From: Stutzerimonas kunmingensis
GTDB lineage: Bacteria > Pseudomonadota > Gammaproteobacteria > Pseudomonadales > Pseudomonadaceae
Direction: 5' to 3'
Assembly (NCBI RefSeq): GCF_002929225.1
Contig: NZ_PISM01000022.1
Location: 248,001 to 312,000 of the forward strand
Length of the DNA stretch: 64,000 bases
Below the pieces are notes generated by a model. It was given only the letters and a program-made list of their open reading frames with translations, was not told where the DNA came from and made no database searches. Every line of letters starts with the position of its first letter. Position 1 is the first letter of the stretch. This document shows positions 8,300 through 14,219 of the stretch, piece by piece. The position numbers and the translations under genes are program-made.

Positions 8300-9214
8300 T
8301 CAGGTGCGGATCAGCGCCTCGCTCAGATAATCGATCAGCGCCCGCGTCTTCGGTGGCAGATGATGATTCTGCCGCCACAGCAGCCAGGCCGCGCCCTGGT
8401 ATGAACCGGTGTAGCGCCACTGCGGCAGCACTTCGCGCAAGCGTCCCTCGGCCAGTGCCTGGGCTGCGGTGAAGTGCGGCAGGCAGGTGATGCCAAGACC
8501 CGCCAGCGCTACCTGCAGCCGCGCTTCGCTGTGGTTGCTGATGTAGCGGCCACGCACCGTCACCGTTTCCTGCTGCTCGCCGCGGCGCAGGTGCCAGCGA
8601 TTGTCCCCGGCCGTTTCCCCCAGATACAGACAGCTGTGGCGCAGCAGGTCCTGCGGATGCTGCGGCTCGCCGTGGCGTTGCAGGTAGTCGGGGCTGGCGC
8701 AGAGCAGCTGGCGTACCGGTCCGAGCGGTTTGCCGGCCAGGCCTTCGGGTGGGGTGTCGGTGACCAGTACCAGCAGGTCGAAGCCGTCCTCGATCAGGTC
8801 CGGGCTCTGGTCGCTGATCCGCAGCTGCACATCGACCTCGGGGTAGCGCTGCAGAAAGGCCGGCATCAACGGTCCGACGACGAACTTGCCATAGGCCTTG
8901 GGCACGCTCAGGCGCACCAGCCCGCGCGGGCTGCGCATCAGCCGTTCGCCGATGGCGACGGCGGCGTCGGCCGCATCGAGCATGTCCCGGCAATGCTGGT
9001 AGAACTCCGCCCCGGCCTCGTTCAGCCGCAGCTGGCGCGTCGTGCGTTCCAGCAGGCGCAGTGCCAGAGCCTGCTCCAGCCGGGCCACCTGGCGGCTTAC
9101 CGCCGACGGTGTGCTGCCCAGCCGCCGAGCGGCGCCAGAGAAGCTGCCGGCCTCGACCACCCGCACGAACACGGCCATGTAGGGCAGCAGAGCTGCGCTG
9201 TCATTCGTTCCCAT
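8300..9214 (-). CDS. LysR-family transcriptional regulator
   Basis: A 304-residue LysR-type regulator. The N-terminal winged helix-turn-helix is clear (VVEAGSFSGAARRL, then STPSAVSRQVARLE), followed by the linker helix and an effector-binding domain with GLVRLSVPKAYGK. It is transcribed divergently from an EamA-family transporter gene 88 bases away, the usual arrangement for a LysR regulator and its target. The inducer is unknown. A weak hairpin (CGGCATC at 8271 with GATGCCG at 8292) lies just past its stop. Confidence 0.93.
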   Translation of the reverse strand: MGTNDSAALLPYMAVFVRVVEAGSFSGAARRLGSTPSAVSRQVARLEQALALRLLERTTRQLRLNEAGAEFYQHCRDMLDAADAAVAIGERLMRSPRGLVRLSVPKAYGKFVVGPLMPAFLQRYPEVDVQLRISDQSPDLIEDGFDLLVLVTDTPPEGLAGKPLGPVRQLLCASPDYLQRHGEPQHPQDLLRHSCLYLGETAGDNRWHLRRGEQQETVTVRGRYISNHSEARLQVALAGLGITCLPHFTAAQALAEGRLREVLPQWRYTGSYQGAAWLLWRQNHHLPPKTRALIDYLSEALIRT

Positions 9215-9269
9215 GCGGAACAGGTCCTGTGCTGTTTCGCTGGATTATCGACCGTGGCGGCAGGCCCGA

Positions 9270-9286
9270 CAATCAGCGCCTGATTG
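9270..9286. promoter_or_regulatory. Candidate LysR operator (perfect inverted repeat)
   Basis: CAATCAG-CGC-CTGATTG is a perfect 7+3+7 inverted repeat in the gap between the divergent LysR gene and the EamA transporter gene, 16 bases before the transporter ATG. Position and symmetry fit a regulator-binding site. It could instead form a hairpin in the transporter leader. Confidence 0.5.
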
Positions 9287-9302
9287 GTGCGGGGATTCGA
9301 AC

Positions 9303-10220
9303 ATGAAAGGCACGTCGAGACAGGGGCTGTGGCTGGCCGATGGCATGCTGCTGATGGTGGCGCTGATCTGGGGCAGCAGCTATGCAGTGGCCAAGCAGGC
9401 GCTGCTGTTCTATCCGGTGCTGGGTTTCTTGGCGATTCGCTTCGGCCTGACCTTCGTCCTGTTGCTGCCGCAACTGCGCGGGGTCGGCCGCCGGGCGCTG
9501 CGCCCCGGTCTGCCGTTGGGGCTGGTGATGCTGGCGATCTTTCTCTGCGAGACCTGGGGCGTGATGCTGACCAGCGCCAGCAATGCGGCGTTTCTGATCA
9601 GCCTGTGCGTGGTGATCACACCGTTCATGGAATGGCTGCTGCTGCGCCAGCGGCCGCACAACACGCTGTTCCTCGCCTGCGCGCTGTCGCTGGCGGGCGT
9701 CTGGCTGCTGACCGGCGGGCCGCAGCTGTCGCTCAATCTCGGCGATGCGCTGATGCTGGCCGCCGCATTGCTGCGCGCGGTGCTGGTCTGCCTGACCCGG
9801 CAATTGACGGCCGGTCAGGCGATTCCCGCGCTGGCGTTGACTGCGGTGCAGAGCGGGGTCGTTGCGAGCGGCTGTATCCTTCTCGGCTTGTCTTTGCCTG
9901 GCGAGCTGCCTGCGCTGCCAGGGGAGCCGGCGTTCTGGTTCGCGGCGCTGTATCTGGTGCTGTTCGCCACGCTGTTCGCCATGTACGCGCAGAACCGCGC
10001 GCTGGGGCGCAGCAGTGCAACGCGGGTGTCGCTGCTGATGGGCTCCGAACCGCTGTTCGGCGCGATCATCGCCGGCCTCTGGCTGGGTGAGCGGCTGGGG
10101 CCGATGGGCTGGGCGGGTGGGTCGCTGATCATGCTGGCAACGCTGTGCACCTTGAGCATCGGCCGCCAGCCGGCGCCGAGCACGGCCGGCGATGGTGCAC
10201 CGATCCGTGCCCGTGCCTAG
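9303..10220 (+). CDS. EamA-family (DMT superfamily) inner-membrane transporter
   Basis: A 305-residue, roughly ten-helix membrane protein with two EamA repeats. The first helix contains VALIWGSSYAVAKQ, typical of the RhaT/EamA group, and the second repeat contains ATLFAMYAQNRALGRSSATRVSLLMGSEPLF. Family members export metabolites or amino acids. I start at MKGTSRQGLW, which precedes the first helix; the reading frame runs 30 codons further upstream across the LysR promoter. It is likely controlled by the divergent LysR protein. The substrate cannot be inferred. Confidence 0.9.
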   Translation: MKGTSRQGLWLADGMLLMVALIWGSSYAVAKQALLFYPVLGFLAIRFGLTFVLLLPQLRGVGRRALRPGLPLGLVMLAIFLCETWGVMLTSASNAAFLISLCVVITPFMEWLLLRQRPHNTLFLACALSLAGVWLLTGGPQLSLNLGDALMLAAALLRAVLVCLTRQLTAGQAIPALALTAVQSGVVASGCILLGLSLPGELPALPGEPAFWFAALYLVLFATLFAMYAQNRALGRSSATRVSLLMGSEPLFGAIIAGLWLGERLGPMGWAGGSLIMLATLCTLSIGRQPAPSTAGDGAPIRARA

Positions 10221-10250: not shown

Positions 10251-11624
10251 TCAGCTCTGCCGTAGTTCGGCCTGCAGCTCATCCAGCGCCGCCTGGCGCT
10301 CGCCGTCCTGCAGGCGGGCGCCGGGGTTGAGAGAAGACCACTCGGGATGCGCGCGGCAGCGCTGCAGCGCATCGGGTAGCTTGCCCTCGCGCCAGCCCTG
10401 ATCCTGCGGTGTGGCCAGGCGGATCGCTTCCGTGGCAGCGTGCCCTCGGGTGGCGAGCACGGCGAGCAGCTGGCGTTGGCGCAGGGCGAGCAGGCGCAGC
10501 ACGGCGTCATCGACGCTCAGTTCACGCTGGCCCTTTAGTTTGCCCAGCAGGCGATTGCCATAGTGCCGCGCGGTCTGCGCGCCGCCGCCGGCAAGGGCGC
10601 CGAGCAGTGCCGCCGCGCCGAGGGTGATGCCGCCGACCATCAGGTCGACCCCAGCACCGGCGGCCGCGCCTGCGGCCATACCACTGCCGATCTTCACGCC
10701 CAGCTGCTTGAGTGTTTCCGGATTGAACACGTCGTCGCCCCAGCGGCCGTCGAGCAGTGGCAGGTCGCTTGCCGCCGCCTGCTCCTTGCGGAAGGCGTAC
10801 AGGCGCAGCAGGGCCTCGACGCAGCGCTGCTCGCGGCCGCGCACGGCGTCGTGCAGTTCACGAATGGCGCCGCGCTCCAGTTCCGGCTGTGCGGCCACGC
10901 TGCGTCGGCAGGCGGCGACGTCTACCAGTAGCTCGGCGATCAGCCGCTGGCCGCTGACCAGGCGCGCCGCGGCCTGTGCTTCATGGTCCTCGATCAGCCG
11001 CTGCAGCTTGGGCCGCGCCTGTTCCAGCAGCAGCGCCAGGCTTTCGTACAGCCGGCGCTCGCCGTCCACGGGGGGCGCCACGCTGTCGAAGCGCACCAGT
11101 GCATGCAGGCCGAGACGGGCCAGCGCCTGACGCCATTCCTCCTCGCGATGGCCGGGCTGGGCGACGAAGTTGAGCACCGGCAGCAGCGGCTTGCCGCAGC
11201 CGGCGAGTACCGCCAGCTCGTCCTTGTACTTGGCCAGTACCGGCTCGCGGGCATCAATCACGTAGAGCCCGGCATCGCTGGCGAGCAACTGGCGCAGCAC
11301 CTTGGCTTCCTGCTCGAAGCGCTGGCGCGCCTCGCTGCCGTCGAGAAAGCGTGCGGTTCGCGCCGGGCCGTCGAGGCGTTCGCCGGGGCGCTCCACGCGT
11401 TCCAGGTAATCGAGCAGGGCGATGGCATCTTCCAGGCCGGGGGTGTCGTACAACTCCAGCAGCGCCTCGCCGTCCACCGACAGCCGTGCGCCTTCGACAT
11501 GGCGGGTGGTGCTGGGACGGTGCGAAACCTCGCCGAAGCCTGCATCACGGGTCAGGGTGCGCAGCAGCGAGGTCTTGCCGACATTGGTATGGCCGACCAC
11601 GGCGAGCTTCAGGGCTTCAGTCAT
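10251..11624 (-). CDS. GTPase with DUF3482-like C-terminal region
   Basis: A 457-residue Era/TrmE-like GTPase. G1 is GHTNVGKTS (residues 11-19), a G2-type Thr pair lies in RPSTTRHVEG, and G3 is DTPG (60-63). The expected NKxD G4 motif is replaced by LPVLNFVAQPG, so nucleotide specificity may be altered. A Gly/Ala-rich hydrophobic segment (about 313-349) near the C-terminus could insert into or press on a membrane. The ATG overlaps the end of the upstream membrane-protein gene by 8 bases, implying coupled translation. Family assignment is from memory of DUF3482 proteins; no function is established that I know of. Confidence 0.85.
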   Translation of the reverse strand: MTEALKLAVVGHTNVGKTSLLRTLTRDAGFGEVSHRPSTTRHVEGARLSVDGEALLELYDTPGLEDAIALLDYLERVERPGERLDGPARTARFLDGSEARQRFEQEAKVLRQLLASDAGLYVIDAREPVLAKYKDELAVLAGCGKPLLPVLNFVAQPGHREEEWRQALARLGLHALVRFDSVAPPVDGERRLYESLALLLEQARPKLQRLIEDHEAQAAARLVSGQRLIAELLVDVAACRRSVAAQPELERGAIRELHDAVRGREQRCVEALLRLYAFRKEQAAASDLPLLDGRWGDDVFNPETLKQLGVKIGSGMAAGAAAGAGVDLMVGGITLGAAALLGALAGGGAQTARHYGNRLLGKLKGQRELSVDDAVLRLLALRQRQLLAVLATRGHAATEAIRLATPQDQGWREGKLPDALQRCRAHPEWSSLNPGARLQDGERQAALDELQAELRQS

Positions 11625-13011
11625 GTCCGCTCTCCAGCCAGCCGAGCGGCGTCGTATTGGAATGGGGCAGGCCCAGGGCGTCCAGCGCCTGGTGCCAGTC
11701 ATTCAGACGCGCACTGTCCAGCGCCTCGCCCGGCGGTGCCTGCAGCAGCCAGACCCGTGTCGCCGCGGCACAGCGCGACAGTTCGCCGATCAGCGCCAGC
11801 GTGCCGCGATCCGGCGAGCGTCGGGGGTCGCAGGCGATGGCCAGGCGTGCCGGTGGAAAACGGCTGAGCTGATCGAGTAGCCGCCGGCGCCCCTCGCGAT
11901 CGTCGAGGATGCCGGCATCGGCGATGCCCTTGGATAGAGCCGGTGGCCAGGGGCGACTGCCGTCCAGCTCGATGGCCACCAGCACGGCGCCGGCACTGCC
12001 ATCAAGCTGGGCGCCGGCGCTGGGAGCGTGCAGTTGGGCGGGTGCTGCATCACTGATACCGAGTCGCTCGCTGGGCGGCTGCAGGCGTTCGCGCAGCAGG
12101 CGATAGGCCGGCAGGCTCAGGTCGAGCTTCAACGCGGCACGACCGCGGCGCCAGCGCCACAGGCTGAACCCCGCCAGCAGCAGCCGCGGCAGCAGCCCAT
12201 AGATCAGCAGCACGCCGACCAGCCAGCCGGCCCAGAGCTGGCGGGCACCTTCCAGATCACCGCCGAGCGTGCCGCTGGCGCGGATCTGCCCGGCATCCGG
12301 CACGCTGAAGCCGAGCAGTGCCGGCAGCGCGCCGAGGGCCTGGGTCAGGCCGACGAAGGCGCTTTCACCGAGAATGGTGGTCTCCCAGACGAAGCCATAG
12401 CGCCGCGTAGCCAGTAGCGCCAGTAATGTCAGCATCGAGCTGCCCATCGCCAGCAGCCACAGGCCATGCACGCCGACGCCCAGCAGCCAGCGACCTAGTC
12501 GGCGCTGGTGCAATACGCTCAGCAGCGCTGGTGCCAGTTGCGCGGCGCGGGCGTCGCGGGCGAGCTTTTCGCTCTGCCAGAGCCACAGCCGCCCCAGCGC
12601 ACCGCCGCTGTCGCCAGCGAAGAGCAGGCCGAGCAGCCAGCCAAGCAGGGTCAGCAGATTCAGCCCGAGCAGGCTGCCCAGCGCCCAGAACACATTGACC
12701 GGTCGCTGCCCGTCGCCCAGTGCAGCGAAGGCCAGGCCGGCGCCGGTGAAGACCGCGAGCAGTGCCAGCACGAACCCACCCAGCCGTGCGCCCTGACGCC
12801 AGTGCAGGAGCGCTTCGACCAAGCCATCACGGCGGGCCAGCCAGAGCGCGCGCTGTTCGATCAGGGCCGGCAGGTCGCCGCCTTGGGCGCGGGCCTGGCG
12901 GTTGGCTTCGTCATCCTCCAGCGGCCCGGCATGCTCTTCGCGCAGGCGCACGGCTTCGGTCAGCCAGAGGCGGTCGAGCGTATCGAGATCAGGGGTGGGG
13001 CGGGCTATCAC
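11617..13011 (-). CDS. DUF2868-like membrane protein
   Basis: A 464-residue protein with four clear membrane segments (about residues 75-98, 105-131, 196-222 and 262-288). An N-terminal cytosolic part is rich in Arg and Glu. The soluble C-terminal domain contains VAIELDGSRPWPP and RLAIACDPRRSPDRG. The layout fits DUF2868 proteins, which pair with DUF3482 GTPases in pseudomonads. Its stop lies inside the start of the GTPase gene (8-base overlap), so the two products probably form one complex at the inner membrane (inference). The role is unknown. Confidence 0.8.
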   Translation of the reverse strand: MIARPTPDLDTLDRLWLTEAVRLREEHAGPLEDDEANRQARAQGGDLPALIEQRALWLARRDGLVEALLHWRQGARLGGFVLALLAVFTGAGLAFAALGDGQRPVNVFWALGSLLGLNLLTLLGWLLGLLFAGDSGGALGRLWLWQSEKLARDARAAQLAPALLSVLHQRRLGRWLLGVGVHGLWLLAMGSSMLTLLALLATRRYGFVWETTILGESAFVGLTQALGALPALLGFSVPDAGQIRASGTLGGDLEGARQLWAGWLVGVLLIYGLLPRLLLAGFSLWRWRRGRAALKLDLSLPAYRLLRERLQPPSERLGISDAAPAQLHAPSAGAQLDGSAGAVLVAIELDGSRPWPPALSKGIADAGILDDREGRRRLLDQLSRFPPARLAIACDPRRSPDRGTLALIGELSRCAAATRVWLLQAPPGEALDSARLNDWHQALDALGLPHSNTTPLGWLESGHD

Positions 13012-13103: not shown

Positions 13104-14219
13104 TCAGTCGGCGTTGCGCAGGCGCACGGCGATGTCGGGCTGGTCGATGAATAGGCCATCGATACCGGCGTCGAGGAAGGTGCGAATCTCCGTTTCACTG
13201 TCGCCGCGTTCGTGGCGCTTGTCGCTGCTGCGCAGGTTGGCCGGGAGGAAGGTGTTTTCCGCGCGGAAGGTGTACGGGTGGACCTTGAGGCCGGCGGCGT
13301 GGGCGGCGGCGACGAAGCCGGTCGGCGTGCCGAGGTTGCCGTTGGCATCACGCGGGATGATGTAGCTCTTCTCCGGACCGACGCCGGCGGCGTAGCGGGA
13401 GATATCCTTGAGCCCGGCCGACGTCGCCATCTGCGCATAGGTCAGCTTGCTGCCGCGCACCTGCTGGTCATACGGCTGGCCGGAGCTGAACAGCTGCACC
13501 AGGCGCAGCTGGGTCAGGCGGCTGAGGGTCTTGAGGTTGTCCACTTCGAACGACTGGATATACACCGGCGCCTGCCGCCCGACGTAGCCGTTGCGCGTAA
13601 GGATGCGCACCAGTGGCTTTTCCATGGCCAGGCCAAGCTGCTGGAAGTGCGTCGGGTGCTTGGTTTCCGGGTACAGGCCGATGCGCCGGCCCTGGCTCAG
13701 CTGCAGGGTTTTCACTAGGTCGATGATTTCCTGCAGGGTCGGGATCTCCAGGCTGCCGTCGAGGCGCGCGTTGCCCGGGCGGGTATCCGGGATACGCTCG
13801 ATGGCGCGCAGGGTCTTCAGTTCGGCGAGGGTGAAGTCTTCGCTGAACCAGCCGGTAAGGGTGACGCCATCGACCTGCTGGGTGCGCTTGCGATCGGCAA
13901 ACTCGGGGCGCTGCGAGACGTCGGTGGTCAGGCCCAGCTCGTTGTCGTGACGGGCGACGATCTGTCCGTCGCGGGTCATCACCAGATCCGGCTCGATGTA
14001 GTCGGCGCCCTGGAAAACGGCCAGCGCATAGGCGGCCAGGGTGTGCTCCGGCAGGTAGCCGCTGGCGCCGCGGTGGGCGATCACCAGCGGCGTCGGCTCG
14101 CCCCGCGCAACCTGGTGTTTCGCGGCGTGTTCATCCGGCGCAGCGAAGCCGGTGAGCGGTAGCAACAGGCTGCAGGCGGTCAGCCAGCGGCGAAGGGAAG
14201 CGGTGGTCTTGCGGGCCAT
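13104..14219 (-). CDS. glpQ: Periplasmic glycerophosphodiester phosphodiesterase GlpQ
   Basis: A 371-residue enzyme that hydrolyses glycerophosphodiesters to glycerol 3-phosphate and an alcohol in the periplasm. An N-terminal signal peptide (MARKTTASLRRWLTACSLLL, ending near GFAA) is followed by the catalytic start VIAHRGASGYLPEHTLAAY with the active-site His. The metal ligands are in YIEPDLVMTRDGQIVARHD. The C-terminal part has GIDGLFIDQPD. Length matches GlpQ rather than the short cytosolic UgpQ. It supplies phosphate and glycerol 3-phosphate from phospholipid headgroups. I looked for a Pho box upstream and did not find a convincing one. Confidence 0.94.
   Translation of the reverse strand: MARKTTASLRRWLTACSLLLPLTGFAAPDEHAAKHQVARGEPTPLVIAHRGASGYLPEHTLAAYALAVFQGADYIEPDLVMTRDGQIVARHDNELGLTTDVSQRPEFADRKRTQQVDGVTLTGWFSEDFTLAELKTLRAIERIPDTRPGNARLDGSLEIPTLQEIIDLVKTLQLSQGRRIGLYPETKHPTHFQQLGLAMEKPLVRILTRNGYVGRQAPVYIQSFEVDNLKTLSRLTQLRLVQLFSSGQPYDQQVRGSKLTYAQMATSAGLKDISRYAAGVGPEKSYIIPRDANGNLGTPTGFVAAAHAAGLKVHPYTFRAENTFLPANLRSSDKRHERGDSETEIRTFLDAGIDGLFIDQPDIAVRLRNAD

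Follow-up and report, generated by a model that had tools for sequence, protein, structure and literature searches.

A two-gene unit in the Pseudomonadaceae encodes a polytopic membrane protein of the family DUF2868 and, directly after it, a GTPase with a C-terminal DUF3482 region. The unit was analyzed here in a stretch of 64,000 nucleotides from Stutzerimonas kunmingensis (contig NZ_PISM01000022.1, positions 248,001 to 312,000), referred to below as the window, in which both genes lie on the reverse strand. The first gene (11617..13011) has a GTG start and encodes 464 amino acids matching PF11067, DUF2868 (E 2.2e-104, 349.8 bits against a Pfam cut-off of 26.8), and the second (10251..11624) encodes 457 amino acids matching PF11981, DUF3482 (E 1.9e-113, 379.2 bits, cut-off 29.2) as well as MMR_HSR1 (E 1.5e-13, 51.3 bits, cut-off 21.9). 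The two genes are strictly linked, the C-terminal domain of the DUF2868 protein has profile similarity to the GTPase domain of its partner, and matches over cut-off to the pair and to the GTPase YcjX are mutually exclusive in two samples of genomes. We put at about even the chances that the pair is a two-protein inner-membrane GTPase module, made up of a pseudo-GTPase anchor and a GTPase with a membrane-active segment, that stands in for YcjX/YcjF.

Linkage was surveyed across the phylum in 398 genomes, with presence taken as a profile match over cut-off. DUF3482 was found in 36 of the 398 and DUF2868 also in 36, and the two sets of genomes are identical, comprising 35 two-gene pairs and one fusion. 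The pair is in each of the 17 genomes sampled from the window's own family, no member of which is among the non-matches, a list ordered by kinship. At the best 80 of 527 confirmed named loci the two are, without exception, same-strand neighbors in separate open reading frames (ORFs), and within these the closest relatives are members of the P. stutzeri group (Pseudomonas and Stutzerimonas), with 100-96% identity. In the window the ORF ends overlap by 8 bases (11617..11624, reverse strand), which would couple translation of the two genes. The spacing between the DUF2868 stop codon and the G1 motif of the GTPase equals the window's 23 nt at 12 of 33 loci, is at most 28 nt at 23 of 33 and ranges from 35 to 416 nt at the other 10; for this count the second fragments of two loci (L080, L082) were dropped and three divergent genomes (G082, G225, G294) were left out. 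A preliminary description, made from the window's sequence, had reported the 8-base overlap, proposed a coupled two-gene system and named co-occurrence as a check. The overlap is as described, and strict co-occurrence in the same 36 genomes, conserved order and frequent overlap all bear the coupling out. When ORFs were clustered across 35 regions of 16-20 kb and the window's initial 24 kb, DUF2868 was the only recurrent neighbor beside the GTPase across many families. A cluster of ABC ATPases (14 ORFs from five families) was considered as a conserved neighbor and rejected, as it appears to mix different transporters.

Departures from the two-gene arrangement are few. The fusion, in genome G225, is a single ORF of 720 amino acids (L062:2103-4265) in which the membrane helices of DUF2868 are joined to the glycine zipper of DUF3482 and the P-loop domain is missing; among 17 genomes of its genus no further fusion of this kind was found, save itself and a weak, short match (G389, 19.3 bits), and for that reason the fusion carries little weight here. 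A finding that weighs against strict linkage is the DUF3482 GTPase gene in 14 Moraxella phage records, where it lies inside the record or at its edge (L194:5965-7365 and L195:5917-7362; Mcat22 and Mcat17 of Moraxella catarrhalis). DUF2868 was found neither in the two stretches of these records that were read nor in a search of the phage collection with the DUF2868 protein of genome G074, and the gene may be either a phage-borne copy or a host gene adjoining a prophage. The preliminary description had regarded frequent occurrence of one gene without the other as a sign against a coupled system; the phylum survey speaks for coupling on this point, and the Moraxella phages, with a GTPase and no DUF2868 found in two stretches, speak the other way. 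Both genes also occur in the unverified and unannotated record of Pseudomonas phage Y10 (L196, OQ572411.1 7259-32623), with a GTPase 79% identical to that of the window, and this record may contain bacterial chromosome. A profile search further placed both genes side by side in a Neisseria gonorrhoeae record of 2.17 Mb filed as a plasmid (L193, NZ_CP119142.1), whose size suggests a mislabelled chromosome.

The phage records, together with matches of the PADLOC LeoA/LeoBC profiles to the GTPase domain, are what favors an anti-phage defense module, which we consider very improbable. The pair is not patchy within its family, having been found in all 17 genomes sampled there, the plasmid collection yielded no match to the window's proteins (tblastn) other than two Neisseria records, each about 2.17 Mb long, and no PADLOC family matches DUF2868 at E <=1. 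The DUF2868/DUF3482 pair belongs to the core of its family and does not resemble a defense island.

The GTPase was aligned in 29 sequences, including that of the window, from 29 of the 36 positive genomes, with identity to the window's protein down to 24%; three genomes were left out as divergent (G082, G225, G294) and four as close to others (G146, G286, G310, G344). The G1 motif or P-loop reads GHTNVGKTS in the window (residues 11-19, 11568..11594, reverse strand), and the pattern GHxNxGK[ST]S is kept in 29/29 sequences, as is the G3 motif DTPG; the general signature of TRAFAC P-loop GTPases, G1 GxxxxGK[ST] with G3 DxxG, is thus found in all 29. Two Thr residues of G2 and D180 of an 'FDxV' motif are likewise invariant. 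By contrast, the G4 motif [NT]KxD is found in 0/29 sequences within residues 101-200, where only its Asn (N152) is kept, in 29/29. The preliminary description was right on these points, having noted good G1 and G3 motifs and no NKxD. It had also regarded loss of G1 in orthologs as a sign against its proposal, and G1 holds throughout the alignment and is lost in the one fusion. A divergent subfamily of the pair carries SHTNxGKTT in place of GHxNxGKTS, in genomes G082 (L064) and G294 (L063).

The AlphaFold2 (AF2) model of the GTPase, built on the 29-row alignment, has a mean predicted local distance difference test score (pLDDT) of 80.2 and a predicted template modelling score (pTM) of 0.80. Residues 1-205 are folded as a GTPase domain of the TRAFAC class, with VIA Z scores of 16.8 to a model of IF2 and 16.4 to Era, and the protein continues in the DUF3482 tail, some 290 residues long. 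Within the tail, alignment and hydropathy mark a glycine-zipper hydrophobic segment (residues 311-351, 10572..10694, reverse strand), where the preliminary description had seen a Gly/Ala-rich stretch, and seven of its residues (G319, A320, G323, D327, G332, G342 and G346) are invariant in 29/29 sequences. The pLDDT falls below 50 at 314-351, which might fit a segment that is ordered only in a membrane or with a partner, but mere disorder as well. No structural match of its own emerged for the helical half among the matches listed, the lists being filled by the G domain. Weak DUF3482 matches in small proteins cover only the region of the zipper (about profile positions 150-210; G054:C3:275535-275687, L071, and G130:C42:108108-108524, L072) and are probably unrelated glycine-rich look-alikes.

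The predicted order of GTPase domain, helical part, hydrophobic segment and C-terminal helices would also suit a minimal dynamin-like remodelling machine, in which the GTPase oligomerizes on the membrane, the zipper serves as paddle or hairpin and DUF2868 is a receptor only. The PADLOC profile for LeoA hits the GTPase domain with E 1.7e-9, and IniA and EHD2 are among the Foldseek matches listed. We nevertheless think this improbable: the LeoA match is limited to residues 4-196, IF2, Arl and Ras-type GTPases outrank IniA and EHD2 in the Foldseek search, and Pfam Dynamin_N is insignificant (E 0.095). With LeoA/LeoBC and IniA, bacterial dynamin-like proteins, the GTPase shares a GTPase-domain profile match followed by helices and a hydrophobic segment; the differences are that the match is confined to the G domain and that the partner, a membrane protein with several helices, lacks a P-loop. 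A membrane-tethered assembly or translation GTPase (like Era, Der or the signal recognition particle receptor), acting on ribosomes or on the insertion of membrane complexes, was also weighed. In its favor, MnmE, Der, Era and IF2 rank among the best matches of the GTPase domain, in sequence as in fold. We think it very improbable: nearly all matches listed cover the G domain alone, as they would for any TRAFAC GTPase, no RNA-binding domain is among the Pfam matches, and only 36/398 genomes have the GTPase. What is common to it and TRAFAC GTPases of the Era, Der and MnmE type is G1, the TT of G2, DTPG and the fold of residues 1-205, whereas the reduction of NKxD to an invariant Asn and the DUF3482 tail with its glycine zipper set it apart.

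The DUF2868 protein was aligned in 31 of the 36 genomes (G058 and G207, with overlong ORFs, and G082, G225 and G294 were left out), and its AF2 model has a mean pLDDT of 84.7 and a pTM of 0.65. In agreement with the preliminary description, hydropathy gives four strong segments that are helices in the model, all on the reverse strand: residues 75-100 (12712..12789), 105-133 (12613..12699), 181-202 (12406..12471) and 259-285 (12157..12237). A weaker hydrophobic segment lies at 219-237, within the loop 203-258 (12238..12405) that follows helix 3 and carries a conserved FxWxTT motif. K+R against D+E amount to 7/3 and 9/4 in two putative cytosolic stretches and to 10/14 in the N-terminus, an excess of K+R in 2/3, and because of these counts we infer a topology with both the N-terminus and the C-terminus inside, by which the conserved loop would be periplasmic.

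The description had further given the protein a soluble C-terminal domain, which the AF2 model bears out as an alpha/beta domain (residues 337-464, 11620..12003, reverse strand; pLDDT mostly 84-90 over 341-460). What the description missed is the probable kinship of this domain. It has profile similarity to the GTPase domain of the partner and is, in our judgment, quite likely a degenerate, P-loop-less relative of that domain, that is, a pseudo-GTPase. With the alignments side by side, the DUF2868 domain tracks beta4-alpha3-beta5-alpha4 of the partner, and there is an invariant Trp in both (W164 and W439). HHalign of DUF2868 residues 325-464 against GTPase residues 1-205 gives a score of 38.6 (pairwise P 1.1e-5, probability 82), and over full lengths it places DUF2868 371-449 on GTPase 102-174 (pairwise P 4.5e-4), the same alignment as found by eye. 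Column shuffles of the DUF2868 domain (n=200) scored a mean of 10.8 and a maximum of 24.0 and 200 further shuffles a maximum of 19.8, so that none of the 400 was as good as the real domain; the reversed domain scored 11.2 and four other stretches of DUF2868 8.5-11.8. Other GTPase profiles, of 2-9 sequences each and with labels assigned from sequence and length, also fell short (Era 10.8, Der 11.7, IF2 12.8, EngB 15.9, MnmE 23.5, mixed set 23.6), and among single sequences the window's partner scored 28.5, against 10.2-19.5 for other GTPases. Registers that overlap within GTPase 87-175 were obtained with the full set and with five row subsets, all of them scoring higher than their own 60 shuffles, including a Pseudomonadaceae-only subset (28.3, shuffles <=17.1) and a non-Pseudomonadaceae-only subset (21.3, shuffles <=16.4). 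The order alpha2-beta4-alpha3-beta5-alpha4-beta6-alpha5 fits both models, the predicted beta6 of DUF2868 having two residues only. A Walker A motif, as expected of an active GTPase, is present in 0/31 of the DUF2868 C-terminal domains.

Several results weigh against kinship of the two domains. The full-length HHalign comparison has a probability of only 33. Six more distant homologs of the partner scored 10.2-21.4 as single sequences, not above other GTPases, and the signal is for this reason taken to rest on the profile and the window's clade and less on each homolog. Two crossed subsets beat their shuffles narrowly (20.0 against 18.6 and 21.9 against 21.6), and the signal is weak in the Halomonas-type subfamily (13.3, 16.4 and 17.9), with a clear register in 1/3. 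Foldseek with DUF2868 gave no match at E <=0.001, and in the VIA search a TIR domain came first (Z 10.1, 3.0 Å over 117 residues), ahead of EngB (Z 9.0, 4.2 Å over 127), other Rossmann folds reaching Z 7-8. The fold by itself is not GTPase-specific, because a TIR domain scores at least as well as EngB. The VIA ranking and the scores of the distant homologs fit an explanation in which the genes are a coupled pair, an unrelated Rossmann-like domain (e.g., TIR-like) forms the C-terminal part of DUF2868 and resembles the partner by convergence, and the absence of YcjX, treated below, is clade history. We regard this explanation as somewhat unlikely: column shuffles, in which composition is kept, never reach the real score, in either set of 200, and the registers overlap across row subsets.

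YcjX is an E. coli stress protein. Across the phylum, YcjX (DUF463) is over cut-off in 162/398 genomes and in 0 of the 36 pair genomes (Fisher p 2.5e-9). A second sample, of 214 genomes from the order, shares genomes with the phylum sample and was scored for the pair by DUF3482 alone; here DUF3482 is found in 68/214 and YcjX in 39/214, with an overlap of 0 against 12.4 expected, and counted by genus the figures are 32/102 and 19/102, again with an overlap of 0 (6.0 expected, p 3e-4). Three families hold both systems, in different genera and never in one genome, which argues against clade history: f5 and f8 in the order sample, and f9, with YcjX in 11 genomes and the pair in another. PspA, used as a control in the 214 genomes, shows no exclusion of this kind: it occurs in 32/68 DUF3482 genomes (27 expected, p 0.14) and in 16/39 YcjX genomes (15.5 expected). 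Over cut-off, the pair and YcjX are mutually exclusive in both samples, and this hints that the two do the same membrane job. Two exceptions lie under the threshold: a DUF3482 genome (G703) has a 24.1-bit YcjX fragment with two stop codons (C245:2278-2445), possibly a decaying YcjX or a chance match, and a YcjX genome (G593) has a 22-bit partial DUF3482 match.

A shared job has its own counterweights. Neither the pair nor YcjX is found in 200/398 genomes of the phylum sample. Counted by family there (87 families, judging by how they are numbered), f9 is the single overlap and p is only 0.028, as clade history would have it; moreover, the p values for exclusion ignore kinship, and genomes are not independent samples. 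PspA has no association with the pair in the 214 genomes. Patterns for sigma-32, sigma-54, AlgU, PhoB and sigma-70 were each found in 0 of 67 upstream regions of 150 nt, obtained from 67/81 loci, a weak test of low power, because the sigma-70 pattern also found nothing and the expectations were 0-1.1. The preliminary description had likened the pair to a membrane-remodelling or stress-response module, and for that likeness the exclusion with YcjX is indirect support, to which neither a PspA association nor a promoter pattern adds. The pair does not belong to the YcjX/YcjF family, as profile searches of the window's genome gave no match to DUF463 or DUF697. HHalign of the pair against YcjX or the putative YcjF found nothing beyond G1-G3, and the relation between the pair and YcjX, if real, would therefore be one of function. 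Like the pair, YcjX (DUF463, PF04317) and YcjF (DUF697) include a GTPase of similar length, and at 14/18 YcjX loci an ORF of 342-402 residues lies directly after the GTPase, a putative YcjF by its position and an end motif. The gene order differs, however, the GTPase gene being first in YcjX/YcjF and second in the DUF2868/DUF3482 pair.

If the pair is a pseudo-GTPase anchor with its GTPase, as we propose, it might work as follows, with the topology, physical complex, membrane insertion, nucleotide cycle and function of the module all inferred. DUF2868 would be a four-helix inner-membrane anchor with both ends in the cytosol, and its C-terminal domain would descend from a GTPase domain related to that of the partner, with loss of the P-loop. 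Through this domain it would recruit and regulate the DUF3482 GTPase, most likely via G-domain-like pairing. The nucleotide state of the GTPase would decide whether its helical part and glycine zipper engage the membrane or the helices of the anchor, GTP binding moving the helical tail and zipper toward the membrane. The job of the module would probably be that of YcjX/YcjF, envelope or membrane maintenance under stress. A bolder version, which we offer tentatively and think doubtful, is that of a split duplicated GTPase, in which the catalytic copy gained a membrane-entering zipper and the copy without a P-loop, with four helices, became receptor and regulator, perhaps completing in trans the base recognition of a partner that has no NKxD; the pair would then have replaced YcjX/YcjF, or vice versa, several times in the Gammaproteobacteria.

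The pseudoGTPase domains of p190RhoGAP are eukaryotic and part of a GTPase-activating protein. The DUF2868 domain differs from them in that it sits in a membrane protein, and the GTPase which this protein would regulate is the product of the neighboring gene. The likeness between the two is a GTPase-like domain within a larger protein (PMC5593906). The DO-GTPases are in part paired paralogs thought to act as dimers, and the names DUF3482 and DUF2868 do not appear in the paper that treats them (PMC7159879).

In the window, the pair is flanked on one side by a GDPD-family gene (13104-14219, reverse strand) and on the other by an EamA transporter gene on the opposite strand (9213-10220, forward). 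An inverted repeat followed by T, seen by eye between the GDPD gene and DUF2868, makes the pair look like its own transcription unit. The longest ORF of the GTPase begins at 11702, and the ATG at 11624 is the start equivalent to that of most relatives. No function for DUF3482 or DUF2868 was found in the literature searched, and in this respect the word 'undescribed' in the preliminary description holds; both proteins are already Pfam DUF families, so the word is fair for function alone. The domains are only listed in published work: as the P. aeruginosa hypothetical proteins HP14 and HP15, which have neighboring gene numbers (PMC12864544), as one marker among many Pfam domains in a predictor of Salmonella severity ('Ligand') (PMC12440251), and as an indel marker (PMC10797017).

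The unit is present in every sampled genome of its family, yet its function is absent from the literature searched. A membrane-anchored pseudo-GTPase together with a GTPase of related sequence would be, to our knowledge, an uncommon arrangement in bacteria. Should the pair and YcjX/YcjF have replaced one another in the way of the bolder version, a comparison of the two would define a conserved membrane function. If the pair does stand in for YcjX/YcjF, two unrelated protein pairs would have converged on one membrane task, and swapping the pairs between strains would make that task testable.

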